A DNA stretch of 26,292 bases from a virus: IMG/VR virus record IMGVR_UViG_3300042691_007224, positions 1-26,292 of that record. One strand, given 5' to 3'. Numbering within the stretch: position 1 is the first letter of the stretch; each line of letters begins with the position of its first letter. A model generated the notes under the pieces. That model did not search any database, had not been told where the DNA came from, and worked only from the letters and a program-made list of their open reading frames with translations. Below, one piece after another: positions 15,411-26,230 of the stretch. The position numbers and the translations under genes were made by a program.

Positions 15411-15439
15411 ATAGTATTACACGGTATTACATTCGTCAA
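15411..15439 (-). promoter_or_regulatory. Sigma-70-like promoter for the MazG operon with operator in its spacer
   Basis: Read leftward: TTGACG (15439-15434), 17-base spacer, TACTAT (15416-15411). The spacer and -10 contain two tandem TGTAATAC words with a 10-base period (rc of 15424-15431 and 15414-15421). The -35 box overlaps the end of the SNF2 gene. The same word occurs in the 21.6-kb and 26.2-kb control regions, which suggests one shared regulator. Confidence 0.65.
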
Positions 15440-16839
15440 CTTTTATTTTCACGATATTTTTTAATTGCGTTTCTCAAACCTTGTTGCGTTTGGGCTTTGT
15501 CGTCAAGCGCCATTGCTTGCGCTTGGTCAAGGGTATCGGCCATTAGAATGCGGTGACACTTGATAGGTACACCCGCGCCTTGTCGCCTCAATCGGGCATT
15601 GAATTGCTCGTAAAGGTCAAGGCTCCAGTTAAGGCCAAACCAAGTGAGTATATGCCCAGTTTTCTGTAACCCGTCAATGCCGTGGCCCATACTAGCAGGG
15701 TGCCCTATCATTAGCGCGCAGTCACCCGTCTGCCATCGGTGCATTGCGTTGACCAATGATGCTTCGGTCTTGCACTCGGTTAGGTTGATGGGTCGAAGGT
15801 GTTTAAACCGCTCCATAATGCGTTGGGCATCGCTGCGGTATGAGTAAGCGCACAGCACAGGGCTGCCTTGGGCTTCATCAACTATTTCTTCCAAAGCGTC
15901 TAGTTTAAGGTCGTGAATTGCTTCCCACATAGGCAAGCCTGGCATTGGGTACATGCAGCCGTTGCTGAACTGCAAGCACTTGTTAGTCAAGCTTGCTTGG
16001 TTGAACACTTCAACAGTAGCACCACTGTCTAGTTGCAGGAAAAACTCTTTTTCCATTTTGTCGTACATGGCGCGAAGTGACGGTGGCATTACGATTTCGA
16101 TGTTGTTCACAATCAAATCAGGTAACGGGTTGTAATCCTCGGCTGACATCTCAAGGGTAATATCACCTATAAGCTCTTTAATGCGACTCTCGGTGTCGTC
16201 ATAGGGTATCTCTTTGAATGGACCAGCTTTGTAATAAAACCGCTGCCTGAATGCTGTTTTCGAAGTGCCCAGCCTAGCGCCACCGTCCACCACCAGATAT
16301 TGACCATGCAGGTCTTTGTAACCGTTGCTGGCAGGTGTACCAGTTAAACCAGTTATCCACTTCATGGCAGGTAATATCTTGCGAACTGACTTAACCCGCT
16401 GAGTGTTTGAGTTTTTACACTTACTGATTTCGTCCCAGACAATACCGTTGAACGGTAACGGCTTGTCTTTACTCACGAAATATGTATTCAGTGTCTCGGC
16501 CAACCACCCCAAGTTTTCATAGTTCACCAGGTAAACATTAGCCGGTTTCAGCAGTGCGCGGGTGCGTTGGTCGCGGGTGCCTGTCAACATGCTGAATGTT
16601 AGGTTCTTGGTGTGCTCCCATTTCGCGGCCTCCTGCTTCCACACCAGGCGAATAACGCGAATAGGTGCAACGATAATCACGGCATTCAAGAACCCAGTGT
16701 TTAACAGGTGGGCAATACTCGTCAAAGTAATCACCGTTTTACCCAGACCCATATCCAGCCACATCATTGTGGCGGCATGGGTGCATTGATGGTTTACGGC
16801 CTTCTTCTGGTACAGATGCAGCTTGTCAGGCGTTAACAT
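15436..16839 (-). CDS. SNF2-family helicase / ATPase
   Basis: A 467-residue superfamily 2 ATPase of the compact phage SNF2 type. Walker A DMGLGKT is at residues 29-35, the Walker B box is DEIS (136-139) in place of DEAH, motif III TGTPAS at 166-171, and the C-terminal lobe has GHPASMGHGIDGLQKTG (motif V) and QFNARLRRQG (motif VI, arginines 416-419). It would move on DNA using ATP and remodel DNA-protein complexes or replication/recombination intermediates. The start overlaps the VRR-NUC stop by seven bases; the two are commonly adjacent in phage replication modules. Confidence 0.9.
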   Translation of the reverse strand: MLTPDKLHLYQKKAVNHQCTHAATMMWLDMGLGKTVITLTSIAHLLNTGFLNAVIIVAPIRVIRLVWKQEAAKWEHTKNLTFSMLTGTRDQRTRALLKPANVYLVNYENLGWLAETLNTYFVSKDKPLPFNGIVWDEISKCKNSNTQRVKSVRKILPAMKWITGLTGTPASNGYKDLHGQYLVVDGGARLGTSKTAFRQRFYYKAGPFKEIPYDDTESRIKELIGDITLEMSAEDYNPLPDLIVNNIEIVMPPSLRAMYDKMEKEFFLQLDSGATVEVFNQASLTNKCLQFSNGCMYPMPGLPMWEAIHDLKLDALEEIVDEAQGSPVLCAYSYRSDAQRIMERFKHLRPINLTECKTEASLVNAMHRWQTGDCALMIGHPASMGHGIDGLQKTGHILTWFGLNWSLDLYEQFNARLRRQGAGVPIKCHRILMADTLDQAQAMALDDKAQTQQGLRNAIKKYRENKS

Positions 16840-17117: not shown

Positions 17118-17322
17118 TTTCAAATTCCAACAATAATTCAATAAAGTGTTTGGCTTTCTCCAGGTCTTTAATTCCGCCTTTATCACGCCAGCGGGTTACA
17201 TACTTGATGACGCTACCCTCGATGAACGGTATGCTATTTCGGTGGATATACTCGACTGGTTGAATCGCTAACTTTGAATAATGATTACCACCTACCTGAT
17301 TTTTTAACGCAGTATCAGACAT
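17083..17322 (-). CDS. DUF3310 small protein
   Basis: A 79-residue protein with the DUF3310 pattern: NHYSKLAIQPVEYIHRN, then IPFIEGSVIKYVTRW, then DKGGIKDLEKAKHFIELLLE. The family is frequent next to replication genes in phages; it is sometimes labelled a nucleotide kinase, which is not established. It overlaps the polymerase end by 19 bases and the nuclease start by 35, a compact coupled order. Confidence 0.85.
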   Translation of the reverse strand: MSDTALKNQVGGNHYSKLAIQPVEYIHRNSIPFIEGSVIKYVTRWRDKGGIKDLEKAKHFIELLLEFENARETNRKEGV

Positions 17323-19115
17323 AATTTTTCAACCTCTTGAATGTAGTATTCGTAATCAATCGGTATAACGGCATCTTTAATATCATTGCAAGGTGTTACC
17401 TTCCACCCACACTCTACACCGATTTTGCGCCAGTCAGTTTTACCCTTAAGCGGTGGCATCCATTTAAACAATGAACCTCCATCAGTTGAAACATAGTAGC
17501 GGGTGATGCGTTGTAGCGGTTTATCGTCAATCGTTAAGTGGCTTGTGCGCGGCACTTTGACTTTAAGCATGAAGTCCATTTTATCAGGCCAGTTAATAAC
17601 CGTTTCTCGAATTGGCGCACCGTCTAGCAGCACCTTTTCAGCAACCTTCGGGATTACAAGCGCACTATGGTCTTGGTGCCACCCGCGCTTATACATGTAG
17701 GCACCTTTGAACTTGCGCTTACCGTCCACGGTCTCAGCTATGTAATTGTTCACATCTCGAATGAACATGCGCTTGTACTCGACTTGCTCCATCTTCAACT
17801 TGGTTACAGACTCCCAGCCTTCCACCACCTCGTTGAAAACATCACGCACACCCCTTGGGATTTTAACCGTGACACCATCCGTGTTAGCTTGGATAATGCT
17901 AATGTATTCCACATTCTCAATTAGCTTCTCGACCAGGTAGCACAGCAGCAGTTGCCCGTTAAGCGTAATCTGCATGGTCATTAGCGGGTCATAGAACACG
18001 CTGAATGGGTTGTTAGAGTCACCATAAACACCGTTCAATGCAAGCTTAAGCATTGCGTTCTCGGCAGTATTCTTGGGGTACTTCTTGCGTTCTTCTTTCA
18101 AGTTGGCGTAAATGTCGCAAAAAATATCAGGGTAATGTGCTGGCTTGAATCGTTGAGCAATAGCTGTGGACGGGTAGTAAGACTCCACATCAATATCGAT
18201 AATCGTGTGAGTGTCAGTAGATTCAACTACCTGCGACTCAATCGAGCCATGAATACCACCCAGCCCGAACACGAAGTCAATTCCACCAACTCGCGCAACT
18301 ACATCCTTAAAAACACCCTTTGTCTCAGTGATTGACTGCGATTTAAGCCACTTCAACACCCTATTAAATTCAGGTTGTTGAAACTTAATCCACGGTAGTA
18401 TGGCATCATTTAAATTTATCACAGGACGCTTGGTTTGTATGGGGGTGCGCCCGTTACGGTCGTAATCGTAACACTGGATGCCTGCCTGCTCTAACCGCAT
18501 GATGAAGAAGTCTTTGCCGATTTTGGTGTCGTTATGGTTCATGAAATCACGGTCGAACTTACGGCTTAGTTCTTCTCGGAACCGTATCATGTCTAACGAT
18601 TCAAGGTAGAACGCCTTAGTCATGCTCACGTCATGTTGGTTGTAGTGCTTCAACACTTGAATTTGGTCGCGGTTGAGCACAGTACCAGGTGGGAAAGGTA
18701 AATCCTCCACATTGTCGGCTTTCATGACGAACTCAAGCGCCTTTAGACTTGTCATTCGCGCCTTGTTGTCGAAGTGGTGAACCTTCAACAAGTCGATTTG
18801 AGGAATGAACCTGCTCGAAGGGTGTACATGATGCGTCCAGTCTTCCGACTCAATGACCGCCTGAGCCTTTTCGTAAATGATGCTTGGGTTAACTACACCC
18901 ATTTTCATAATCATGTGCAATATAGGGTAATCGAACCCCACATTGTTAAACCCAACCATTGTGGAATTGGTTTGCGACTGCAAAAACGCTAGAAACTCGG
19001 TTGAGTCATTGCGCCAAGGTGACACCTCGTAAAACAACTTAACAGGCGCGTCAACGGCTTCAAACGCGCAAGTGAACACATTAGGGTATGTCTCAATATC
19101 ATAAACCCATTTCAT
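17304..19115 (-). CDS. Family B DNA polymerase with 3-5 exonuclease domain
   Basis: A 603-residue replicative polymerase. The N-terminal exonuclease has Exo I DIE (D6, E8), Exo II GFNNVGFD (D62) and Exo III YNQHD (Y158, D162), so proofreading is likely intact. The polymerase domain has motif A DIDVESYYPS (from D307), motif B KLALNGVYG (357-365) and motif C ANTDG, where the first Asp of the usual DTD is Asn and the second (D413) is kept. No terminal-protein (TPR) insert is apparent. At 603 residues it is shorter than T4-like PolB. The ATG at 19115 has GGAG eight bases upstream; an earlier ATG at 19139 has none. Confidence 0.9.
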   Translation of the reverse strand: MKWVYDIETYPNVFTCAFEAVDAPVKLFYEVSPWRNDSTEFLAFLQSQTNSTMVGFNNVGFDYPILHMIMKMGVVNPSIIYEKAQAVIESEDWTHHVHPSSRFIPQIDLLKVHHFDNKARMTSLKALEFVMKADNVEDLPFPPGTVLNRDQIQVLKHYNQHDVSMTKAFYLESLDMIRFREELSRKFDRDFMNHNDTKIGKDFFIMRLEQAGIQCYDYDRNGRTPIQTKRPVINLNDAILPWIKFQQPEFNRVLKWLKSQSITETKGVFKDVVARVGGIDFVFGLGGIHGSIESQVVESTDTHTIIDIDVESYYPSTAIAQRFKPAHYPDIFCDIYANLKEERKKYPKNTAENAMLKLALNGVYGDSNNPFSVFYDPLMTMQITLNGQLLLCYLVEKLIENVEYISIIQANTDGVTVKIPRGVRDVFNEVVEGWESVTKLKMEQVEYKRMFIRDVNNYIAETVDGKRKFKGAYMYKRGWHQDHSALVIPKVAEKVLLDGAPIRETVINWPDKMDFMLKVKVPRTSHLTIDDKPLQRITRYYVSTDGGSLFKWMPPLKGKTDWRKIGVECGWKVTPCNDIKDAVIPIDYEYYIQEVEKLCLILR

Positions 19116-19153
19116 AATAGATACTCCGCGCCCGTCCATGGGCGCACAGGTGA

Positions 19154-19759
19154 TTAGGTCATCATGAATGGAGGAAGGCCAGCGGGAGCAGCAGTAGCGC
19201 CGAACACACCGCTTACATCAGGGGTAGCGTCACCACCGAAGCTCTCACCATCAGCAAGGAACTGTACAGCTACTAACTCACACCGAATACCTACACCATG
19301 GGTATTAGCTTGCACCCAAGGCTTAACCACGGCATTCACATAGCATCCACCGTAGATTTTCCCTGCTTCTGACTTGTAGGTCATGCTGTTGTTCGGGTCA
19401 ACTTTAACGCCTTTCTCGTCAAAAATCTGAGGGGCGTTTTTGTTGTTGGCTGAAATAACAATGTTGCCTTCGTACCCGTCATAGACTTTAAATGTCTTTT
19501 GGTTAACCTTAGTGCTGCCATCAGCATAACAACGCTTTTTGGCGTCAGCGTTGATGATATTCATTACATCAGCGGCCTTTTCCTTCCACTTATCTTGTGC
19601 GATTACTCCTACCTGCTTCATAAAATCGGCATACCCAGTGTGAGTGGGTGGTACGATAAACACAGCGTTATAGGTGGGGGTGCCGCCTTGTGTCGAAGAT
19701 TGGGGTTCTTTTAAGTGAGGGAACGAAATTCGGACATTACTTAATACGACAATACTCAT
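19154..19759 (-). CDS. DUF2815 single-stranded DNA-binding-like protein
   Basis: A 201-residue protein of the DUF2815 family, whose members look like OB-fold ssDNA-binding proteins of the T7 gp2.5 kind. Seen: SNVRISFPHLKEP at the start, YNAVFIVPPTH, a helical insert ending DAKKRC, YEGNIVISANNKNAPQIFD, and GGCYVNAVVKPWVQANTHG with AVQFL after it. The C-terminus is Gly/Pro/Ala-rich but not acidic, unlike many SSBs. It sits between DUF2800 and the polymerase as in many phage replication modules, and GGAG lies nine bases before the ATG. Confidence 0.9.
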   Translation of the reverse strand: MSIVVLSNVRISFPHLKEPQSSTQGGTPTYNAVFIVPPTHTGYADFMKQVGVIAQDKWKEKAADVMNIINADAKKRCYADGSTKVNQKTFKVYDGYEGNIVISANNKNAPQIFDEKGVKVDPNNSMTYKSEAGKIYGGCYVNAVVKPWVQANTHGVGIRCELVAVQFLADGESFGGDATPDVSGVFGATAAPAGLPPFMMT

Positions 19760-19763
19760 TTGT

Positions 19764-20948
19764 TTATTCTCCGGTTAACCATTTTGGAAGTTGAAATAGG
19801 CTACTTACATCAACCGTCACAGCCTGCCTAGGGTCTGATTCGGGTGCTACTGTTAGCTTACCTGCTTTAGTTACAACATACTCCTGCTTCATCGTTGCGA
19901 GTTGCCTAGCCGATAGGCTTTGCTTCTCACCGTTCTTTTCCCAAGTTAGCTTCTCAGCCTGCGCCACTGATACCAACTCAGTTTTATAAATGGCCGTCTT
20001 AGGTACGCCCATTTTCTTGAGTTTCTCGGCTATTTCGTCATCAGATAACGCCCACTGGCGACTACCGCGACCGTTCACCAGCTTAAACCCAGGCACACTA
20101 TTACCCGCCTGCAACCGCTTCAATACTTCTTCATCAGCACTTGCCAGCATTGTGCGAACAAGTGGTGCAGCTTCCAGTACCTTAGCCAGTTGTTCATCAC
20201 TCATAACAGAAGGGTCATTGATAGCAGCAGGGTCAAGCAATGACACATTCACAAGCTCAAGCGAGTGATTGACCAATGCAGGGCAGTTACCCTTAGCCTT
20301 GCACCACTTGCACTGTGACTCACCAGGTACCAACGGTGCGCTAGGGTCATCAGTGGCGGCAGCTTGCGCCTTAATATCAGGCACCTTAGCTAACAACTCG
20401 GCTATTGTAACAGTGTGCGAGTTGATTTGTGGGAACGCCTTGGGCTGGATAATTGTCATTTTAACCGTTTCAAAGCGCCCGTCTAGATGTTCAGTCAACT
20501 CACCCAGTGCGTAAATCTCCATCTGAGCATTATCGACAGCACTCACAGGAGTGAACCCGTCCTTGTAGTCGACAATCTCAAGCTCTGCACCGTCAACTAT
20601 GACAATATCACAAGTACCTGTTAAGTCGTCACGCCCTACGAAATGAAAAGGGTTAACGCGCTTCTCAGACGAGTAGTTGCGCCCCTTCGCATAATTGTAG
20701 GCTACCGCTACACGGGTGGCGCGTTCGGCATCTACAGTGAAAGAATCATCACCGCACAAAAATCCTTCACCTACCATTGACAAAGGGTCTACATCTTCTA
20801 ATAAGCAATGCTCTAGCACTGCATGGCTACGGGTACCATCTAATGCAGCCAAACCTGAGTTGTCGGGATATTTAGCTTCTTCGCGTACCGAACCAGGGCA
20901 CTTGCTCCAGCGGTGCCGCGAAGACGGGCTTAGTTTACTATGACTCAT
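19764..20948 (-). CDS. DUF2800 RecB/Cas4-like nuclease
   Basis: A 394-residue PD-(D/E)XK exonuclease-like protein. Motifs: WSKCPGSV (C17), GTRSHAVLEH (H42), GTCDIVIV (D114), EIVDYKDG (D127, K129), and QMEIYALG (Q142). CKWCKAKGNCPAL gives three further cysteines (213, 216, 222); with C17 they form the four-Cys pattern of the iron-sulfur cluster in Cas4/AddB-like nucleases. It probably resects DNA ends for recombination or replication. The ATG overlaps the stop of the gene before it (ATGA), and only four bases separate it from the ssDNA-binding gene. Confidence 0.9.
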   Translation of the reverse strand: MSHSKLSPSSRHRWSKCPGSVREEAKYPDNSGLAALDGTRSHAVLEHCLLEDVDPLSMVGEGFLCGDDSFTVDAERATRVAVAYNYAKGRNYSSEKRVNPFHFVGRDDLTGTCDIVIVDGAELEIVDYKDGFTPVSAVDNAQMEIYALGELTEHLDGRFETVKMTIIQPKAFPQINSHTVTIAELLAKVPDIKAQAAATDDPSAPLVPGESQCKWCKAKGNCPALVNHSLELVNVSLLDPAAINDPSVMSDEQLAKVLEAAPLVRTMLASADEEVLKRLQAGNSVPGFKLVNGRGSRQWALSDDEIAEKLKKMGVPKTAIYKTELVSVAQAEKLTWEKNGEKQSLSARQLATMKQEYVVTKAGKLTVAPESDPRQAVTVDVSSLFQLPKWLTGE

Positions 20949-21403
20949 AACGCCTCCACCTTGGCGTATAACTCGGCATACTTGTCAGGTGTTAGTTCGT
21001 TGATGTTCTCGAACCCTAGCGACTGAACTACTGTTTGAATTTCAGCGCCTTTGACTGGGCCTAGGGTGCGCCATTTAGTAGTAACCCACGCTATCATCTC
21101 GTTAGGTGTGGTGAAGGGTGCAGCGGCTACCACAGGAGCGGCTACCACAGGAGCGGCTACCACAGGAGCGGCTACCACAGGAGCGGCTACCACAGGAGCA
21201 GGAGCGGGTGGTGGAGTGAGCACAGGTTGCTGCACCACAAGCGCCGATGATGGGGCAACAGGAGCGGGTGGCGCTAACACAGGGGCTTGGGCTACTATGT
21301 TAGCCACTGCTTCTTGTTGTGCCTGCGGTAGTGTGTCTAATAGACGCTCTAGCACTCGAATATTACCAAGTACACATTCAGCCATAAGTTCAATATGTTT
21401 CAT
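20945..21403 (-). CDS. Repeat-linker protein of the replication operon, unknown
   Basis: A 152-residue protein with three parts: a helical N-terminus (residues 1-40, including RVLERLLDTLPQAQQEAV), a Pro/Ala/Val linker (about 41-97) with five copies of a five-residue APVVA unit, and a C-terminal helical domain of about 52 residues (NEMIAWVTTKWRTLG then LTPDKYAELYAKVEAL). The linker is encoded by five identical 15-base repeats. Two small domains on a flexible tether suggest an adaptor for proteins or DNA at the fork. The family is not recognised. GGAG lies eight bases before the ATG. Confidence 0.7.
   Translation of the reverse strand: MKHIELMAECVLGNIRVLERLLDTLPQAQQEAVANIVAQAPVLAPPAPVAPSSALVVQQPVLTPPPAPAPVVAAPVVAAPVVAAPVVAAPVVAAAPFTTPNEMIAWVTTKWRTLGPVKGAEIQTVVQSLGFENINELTPDKYAELYAKVEAL
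21123..21197. repeat. Five perfect 15-bp tandem repeats inside a coding region
   Basis: The unit GCGGCTACCACAGGA is present five times without a mismatch and keeps the reading frame of the minus-strand gene. It encodes the Ala/Pro/Val linker. Perfect identity points to recent expansion by slippage, so copy number may vary between related phages. Confidence 0.95.
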
Positions 21404-21602
21404 TGTTCATTCTCCAAAGATTAGTGATTGTTTTCGCAGGGGTTTCAGGTGGTGATATTGTTAATCGGTTATCTACCAGGGCGTTAAACAACTCCCTAGC
21501 TACATCACTGGGGGTGCCGTACTTACTGGCGAACTTCTTATATCGCCTGCATTCCGCCTCCTCCATTCTTACAGTGAAAACTACATTTTTAAGTTTCTTC
21601 AT
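21390..21602 (-). CDS. Ribbon-helix-helix DNA-binding protein, probable repressor
   Basis: A 70-residue protein with the ribbon-helix-helix layout: beta strand NVVFTVRM (7-14), helix A EEAECRRYKKFASKYG, turn TPSD, helix B VARELFNALVDN, and a flexible tail. Such proteins bind DNA as dimers, often on tandem sites 10-11 bases apart. It is the first gene of the replication operon and lies directly at a promoter pair carrying operator-like TGTAAT repeats, so autoregulation is the natural inference. GAGG lies before the ATG. The end overlaps the next gene by 14 bases. Confidence 0.75.
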   Translation of the reverse strand: MKKLKNVVFTVRMEEAECRRYKKFASKYGTPSDVARELFNALVDNRLTISPPETPAKTITNLWRMNNETY

Positions 21603-21626
21603 TTCAACGCCTCTTGTGTGTCGTTG

Positions 21627-21655
21627 TTGTAAATTGTAATACAGTGAATTACACT
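21627..21655 (+). promoter_or_regulatory. Rightward promoter of the primase-helicase gene
   Basis: TTGTAA (21627-21632), 17-base spacer, TACACT (21650-21655), followed by the ATG at 21688 with AAAGG seven bases before it. The spacer carries the same operator as the leftward promoter, so one bound protein could block both. Confidence 0.5.
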
Positions 21656-21661
21656 ATGCAA
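21633..21661 (-). promoter_or_regulatory. Leftward promoter of the replication operon
   Basis: Read leftward: TTGCAT (21661-21656), 17-base spacer, TACAAT (21638-21633). The -10 box matches the consensus at five of six positions. The spacer holds TGTAAT and TGTATT with a 10-base period. It faces the rightward promoter at 21627-21655 and shares the operator with it. Confidence 0.6.
21635..21653. promoter_or_regulatory. Operator-like inverted repeat TGTAAT-N7-ATTACA
   Basis: A 19-base element with arms TGTAAT and ATTACA, lying between the -10 and -35 boxes of both divergent promoters. Its first eight bases, TGTAATAC, recur at 15414, 15424 and 26231. A neighbouring gene encodes a ribbon-helix-helix protein, the likely ligand. 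Confidence 0.6.
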
Positions 21662-21687
21662 CAGCCAAAACAAAAAAAGGTTAAATC

Positions 21688-26192: not shown

Positions 26193-26230
26193 TGTTGACA
26201 GTGTAAACAGTACAAGTGACAGTGTCAACA
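26193..26230. promoter_or_regulatory. 38-bp quasi-palindromic operator
   Basis: Outer arms TGTTGACA and TGTCAACA are perfect eight-base inverted repeats; inner TGT/ACA and a central GTAC also pair. TGACAGTGT occurs twice in direct order (26196 and 26217), 21 bases apart, two helical turns. The -35 and -10 of the leftward promoter are built into the arms. Confidence 0.65.
26200..26228 (-). promoter_or_regulatory. Strong leftward early promoter
   Basis: Read leftward: TTGACA, a perfect -35 (26228-26223), 17-base spacer, TACACT (26205-26200). It leads into the 36-residue gene and the clamp-like gene. Rightward, GTGACA (26216-26221), 17 bases and GAAAAT (26239-26244) could form a divergent promoter toward the window end, with TGTAATAC in its spacer. 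Confidence 0.7.

Follow-up and report, generated by a model that had tools for sequence, protein, structure and literature searches.

The 85-bp gap (21603-21687) between a gene for a small ribbon-helix-helix (RHH) protein and a primase-helicase gene, in the window of 26,292 bases analysed here (the whole of a virus record), carries two predicted promoters that diverge, overlap and share a candidate operator adjoining the RHH gene, an assignment that is well supported by comparison of sequences (Table 1). The site appears on these grounds to be real and conserved, and ordinary in kind. A preliminary description had proposed overlapping divergent promoters and a common operator beside an RHH gene, and this reading is borne out by a 39-bp dyad, by conserved pairs of -10 hexamers and by an RHH-like structural model: divergent overlapping promoters, shared operator and regulator gene occur together at the level of sequence only. 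The explanation that we consider probable is a divergent early promoter, both arms of which would be shut by its own RHH product acting through the 39-bp dyad.

Table 1. Genes, predicted promoters and candidate sites in the window.
Feature	Position	Strand	Remarks
Candidate operator dyad, 39 bp, centre 21644	21625..21663	.	Outer GTTG/CAAC, inner TGTAATACA-G-TGAATTACA; based on sequence, shuffles and relatives
Inner palindrome TGTAAT-N7-ATTACA	21635..21653	.	Given in the preliminary description; based on sequence
Rightward promoter, predicted (primase side), TTGTAA-N17-TACACT	21627..21655	+	Start predicted at ~21662; -10 position conserved
Leftward promoter, predicted (RHH/replication operon), TTGCAT-N17-TACAAT	21633..21661	-	Start predicted at ~21626; -10 position conserved
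70-residue RHH protein gene, proposed operator binder	21390..21602	-	Shine-Dalgarno-like AAGAGG at 21615-21610
Prim-pol / PriCT_2 / DUF3987 primase-helicase, 816 aa	21688..24138	+	Shine-Dalgarno-like AAGG at 21677-21680
152-aa protein, gene 2 of leftward operon	20945..21403	-	Position conserved in relatives
DUF2800 / PD-(D/E)XK exonuclease	19764..20948	-	
Enc34-type ssDNA-binding protein	19154..19759	-	
DNA polymerase	17304..19139	-	Synteny with DSL-LC05 (family B in that annotation); no match in Pfam
SNF2-type helicase	15436..16839	-	Immediately precedes candidate second site
Candidate second site, TTGACG-N17-TACTAT (9/12)	15411..15439	-	TGTAATAC repeated in spacer; ahead of 143-aa leftward ORF, after SNF2
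Promoter-like site, TTGACA-N17-TACACT (10/12)	26200-26228 (region 26195-26228)	-	Upstream of leftward genes at right end; part of the dyad ranked second in the window

Read directly from the sequence, the rightward hexamers are TTGTAA (21627-21632) and TACACT (21650-21655), and the leftward ones, on the minus strand, TTGCAT (21661-21656) and TACAAT (21638-21633), each pair with a 17-bp spacer; TGTAAT (21635-21640) and ATTACA (21648-21653) stand 7 bp apart. Letters and coordinates had been given correctly in every case for the two promoters and the palindrome. Each predicted promoter matches the consensus at 8 of 12 positions (4+4 and 3+5), below the cut-off of 9/12 used in the mechanical promoter scan, and both are hence absent from its list. 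Such features are frequent by chance: when the 85-bp gap was shuffled 2000 times with dinucleotides preserved, both strands carried one or more 8/12 sites of this type in 14.5% of cases, and a palindrome with 6-bp arms (gap 3-12) arose in 23.5%, so that the quoted promoters and palindrome taken alone are not significant. These figures would favour the view that the gap is A+T-rich DNA in which a short palindrome happens to coincide with weak hexamers, an account contradicted by the larger dyad and its conservation, which leave it hardly credible. The two promoters also mirror each other exactly about position 21644 (21627+21661 = 21650+21638 = 2 x 21644), a point absent from the preliminary description. 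In a perfect palindrome the presence of one promoter entails that of its mirror image, so promoter pair and operator do not constitute independent evidence.

The dyad itself extends over arms 21625-21643 and 21645-21663, with 15 of 19 positions paired and thus 4 of 19 differing between the halves; the palindrome described earlier is its middle, the inner dyad measuring 19 bp against 39 bp for the complete one. Of the approximately 52,500 centres in the window it has the highest score, which none of 2000 shuffles reached. The above-chance status of the site rests on this dyad and on conservation, not on the quoted letters.

Conservation was assessed in relatives collected via the primase, and RHH members were found there by means of an RHH family profile; used as a direct query, the RHH protein of the window had no match in viral contigs. 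The primase search of viral contigs returned 70 loci (45-56% identity in the best segment), and one annotated phage relative was found, DSL-LC05 (OR003940.1). The RHH gene is divergent from the primase gene in 54 of the 70 loci and colinear with it in 9, the upstream sequence being too short in 6 and the arrangement different in 1. Alignment of 49 of the 54 divergent loci (RHH-primase gap of at most 1000 bp; L045, L058, L060, L061 and L065 were left out for longer gaps) with the window and DSL-LC05 comprised 43 distinct sequences, of which L003 is incomplete at its left end. A common element, approximately GTTG...GTGTAnCACA..TGTGnTACnnT..GTGCAAC, was evident beside the RHH start, and the window aligns with it. 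Its position beside the RHH start is also kept in loci whose primase gene is 280-998 bp distant.

Outward-facing pairs of -10 hexamers 16-20 bp apart are present in 36 of the 43 sequences and absent from the other 7. A spacing of 17-18 bp was found in 31/43, as against a mean of 1.1 and a maximum of 5 in 300 rounds of shuffling, a comparison that overstates significance because related sequences are not independent; every other single offset from 8 to 31 bp was represented by 0-5 sequences. When representatives with less than 70% RHH identity were considered (n=21), 14 of them, the window included, retained a pair at 16-19 bp. The operator is the top match of a 35-sequence profile (L003, L033, L040, L049, L054, L056, L059 and L070, 8 of the 43, being omitted) in the window and in 13/13 scanned relatives, 11 of which had contributed to the profile. 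The exact pattern TGTANCAC-N0-4-GTGNTAC, found in 4 of 18 relatives, is too strict. Dyads in the relatives are weaker, with 8-13 of 18 pairs compared to 14 in the window, and several loci have their best dyad elsewhere.

The details of the hexamers also suggest working promoters. Most relatives feature TGn-extended -10 elements, whereas the window lacks TGn and its -35 elements are poor. Among rightward promoters, TTG at a spacer of 16-18 bp occurs in 7 of 10 without TGn, the group to which the window belongs, but in 3 of 26 with TGn (Fisher p 0.0013, a value that ignores relatedness), and an exchange of this kind is the pattern expected of promoters that function. It bears, together with the strict 17-18 bp spacing of the outward -10 hexamers, on another reading of the dyad, as a replication origin or iteron site next to the primase gene, with the -10-like words a by-product of A+T-rich repeats. 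The site does lie amid replication genes, and TTGTAA is repeated there in both inverted and direct orientation. Spacing and exchange suit promoters better, however, and the composition profile has no sharp turn of skew at the site, so that we regard an origin as very improbable.

The 70-residue product of the first leftward gene is predicted from its structural model to adopt an RHH-like fold. Members of the RHH (MetJ/Arc) superfamily possess a strand-helix-helix core some 45 residues long and bind DNA as dimers by means of a two-stranded sheet. It is 20-36% identical to 29 other members of the family and possesses all three invariant arginines. In the AlphaFold model, core pLDDT exceeds 90, and helices at residues 15-26 and 31-43 follow an N-terminal stretch. 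DSSP assigned no N-terminal strand in this monomer model, which counts against the fold, although it would be expected of a strand that pairs only in the dimer. Structure comparison with VIA, the result of which is based on only two chains, gave a moderate match to chain 9lew_G of a DinJ-YafQ complex (Z 5.5, 48 residues, 1.9 A); DinJ is an RHH-type antitoxin. Foldseek retrieved no significant match to the model in the PDB, and sequence searches of Pfam, PHROGs and the PDB yielded no match to the protein. Matches of its relatives in these three libraries are mostly weak or spurious: among the 30 RHH members, weak profile matches were to HicB (6, best 0.0021), NikA-like (3), and RHH_10, RelB and ParG (1 each), and a single relative had a weak Arc-like PHROG match. 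A toxin-antitoxin interpretation was set aside because the partner, the Pro/Ala-rich 152-aa protein, has no toxin match in Pfam or PHROGs. A short tandem repeat (ggagcggctaccaca) at 21120-21200 of the window encodes Ala/Pro/Val-rich repeats in this 152-aa protein.

The candidate site might instead be bound by some other protein of host or phage, the RHH protein acting elsewhere, for example in segregation, at the start of replication or at another promoter. Inspection by eye of RHH strands and operator variants revealed no clear co-variation (L035 and L019 share the strand of the L006 group and have a different operator), as would suit such a binder. But where cargo displaces the primase gene, or where that gene lies on the other strand, the element remains beside the RHH gene, and this constancy matches the prediction of autoregulation; we therefore hold a different binder to be improbable.

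According to the autoregulatory explanation, region 21603-21687 would direct early transcription to both sides by a host polymerase of sigma-70 type. Its two promoters, one per strand and set back to back, have outward-facing -10 hexamers 17 bp apart and would admit only one polymerase at a time. Leftward transcription would lead to the RHH protein, the 152-aa protein, exonuclease, ssDNA-binding protein, polymerase and helicase, and rightward transcription to the primase-helicase; as the preliminary description had stated, the replication genes of the window are indeed divided in this manner, with primase on one side and the exonuclease, ssDNA-binding protein, polymerase and helicase genes on the other. 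The balanced control that it had envisaged for the two sides is doubtful. With starts predicted only ~36 bp apart there is no space for two polymerases, so the promoters would exclude each other, and competitive rather than simply balanced output is the simplest expectation, by analogy with bidirectional promoters of E. coli (PMC12825309). The RHH protein would occupy the dyad, most likely as at least two dimers, covering both -10 and both -35 hexamers, and on accumulation would close both promoters, its own included, in an autogenous early repression like that of other phage RHH repressors. We infer promoter activity, the RHH protein as binder, repression, stoichiometry and timing, and assume that the protein acts as a repressor rather than an activator.

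Occupation by one dimer, as first suggested, is doubtful as well when the inner 19 bp and the total of 39 bp are set beside AmrZ of Pseudomonas aeruginosa, an RHH protein which binds an 18-bp site as a dimer of dimers and acts at its own promoter (PMC3325190). By its length the candidate site is sufficient for two or more RHH dimers. Unlike the RHH protein of the window, AmrZ is not a phage protein and carries a C-terminal oligomerisation domain. Since RHH proteins can both activate and repress, as reported for AmrZ, the site could also choose direction, RHH protein on one arm blocking one promoter and leaving or helping the other. Outer and inner arms can be viewed as separate repeats, the two halves are not identical, and bias towards one of two mutually exclusive promoters affects the other, as indicated by a study of bidirectional promoters (PMC12825309). 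Near-perfect symmetry in the window nevertheless gives neither side an obvious preference, and a choice of direction seems to us unlikely.

Repression by the RHH product remains the preferred explanation, and natural variants bear on what it serves. A replisome split over two strands, presented earlier as the purpose of the design, is doubtful in this role, given that 9 of 70 loci are colinear, with replication genes and primase on the same strand, and that cargo genes often stand ahead of the primase. Two colinear records, apparently one sequence in opposite orientations, keep the two-way RHH promoter, the other arm leading to small unrelated ORFs (by eye). A third, with its upstream neighbour in the same direction, has a palindrome in the spacer of the RHH promoter; an outward second -10 was not seen there by eye. 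It is accordingly the RHH gene together with its promoter that stays constant among these variants, whereas the division of the replisome does not. Examples of colinear loci are L046, L048, L050, L057 and L072, in which replication genes, SNF2 and primase are all on one strand, unlike in the window.

The interval between element and primase is itself variable. Small ORFs are found there in many relatives, the longest being more often, though not always, rightward, and in L022 (2513-3095) and L069 (5545-5982) an inserted rightward ORF resembles, by eye, an HNH-type endonuclease. A G+C-rich hairpin following an A-rich stretch lies just before the primase Shine-Dalgarno sequence in 31 of 41 distinct primase leaders (e.g. 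L004:1576-1742). It is terminator-like for leftward transcripts, and no such hairpin is present in the window. A possible role of the hairpin is to keep antisense transcription away from the divergent promoter.

Further sites of related type could define a small regulon. The candidate second site downstream of the SNF2 gene in the window came to light through inspection by eye and a search for palindromes; the profile did not detect it. Words of the AGTGTATCACA type occur after or near the SNF2 gene in some relatives, and second sites after SNF2 were recognised by position and eye in the records of 5 of 13 relatives (G001, G009, G010, G014 and DSL-LC05). These second sites of the relatives have profile E-values of 0.25-4.7 each and are only suggestive; no site of this type, the two in the window (15411-15439 and 26200-26228) included, is significant alone. 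A tentative and rather unlikely extension is that this phage group uses the mirror-symmetric site as a switch for the direction of early transcription (exclusive promoters with 17-18 bp between -10 hexamers), the RHH protein being a timer and more distal half-site copies in the leftward operon making up a small regulon by which the replication genes are ordered. Identity to relatives is 71-81% for the SNF2 protein compared to ~50% for the primase, a marked gap in rate or origin. With the SNF2 protein as query, genome_contigs yielded no match that could point to a host or prophage.

In phage P22, the operator is located between divergent promoters. The immunity I region of that phage encodes the small RHH repressors Arc and Mnt, with Arc under autogenous control (PMC2629481), and is comparable to the window in its small phage RHH repressors and in autogenous control, which is proposed for the window. 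It controls an antirepressor gene, whereas the proposed targets in the window are replication operons, and no sequence relation is detectable save the weak Arc-like match of one relative. The bidirectional promoters of Warman and Grainger (e.g. E. coli PacrA/acrR) are opposed and mutually exclusive, with one side making the repressor of both, and share one common -10 element with starts mostly 18, or 10 and 23, bp apart (PMC12825309). The opposed promoters of the window, likewise expected to exclude each other, with one arm encoding the proposed repressor, fall outside that definition, their -10 hexamers being separate, with an offset of 17 bp, and their starts being predicted ~36 bp apart. 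Closest to the window are DSL-LC05 and the uncultivated relatives in IMG/VR, which resemble it in the order of genes, in the divergence of the RHH gene and in the element but differ in their mostly TGn-extended -10 hexamers and in the hairpin ahead of the primase. The DSL-LC05 paper (PMC10611076) contains no promoter analysis in its main text, where the word "promoter" is absent. A literature search combining RHH, DUF3987 and phage found nothing, and among papers listed by searches on RHH proteins with divergent or overlapping phage promoters the arrangement appears in no title or opening of an abstract.

Although the kind of switch is already familiar, an RHH family barely recognised by the libraries searched here gains a likely function and a candidate target site, and phages known almost only from metagenomes gain testable coordinates for early transcripts. 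If the two promoters truly exclude each other, competition at one site would set how much primase is made relative to the other replication proteins.
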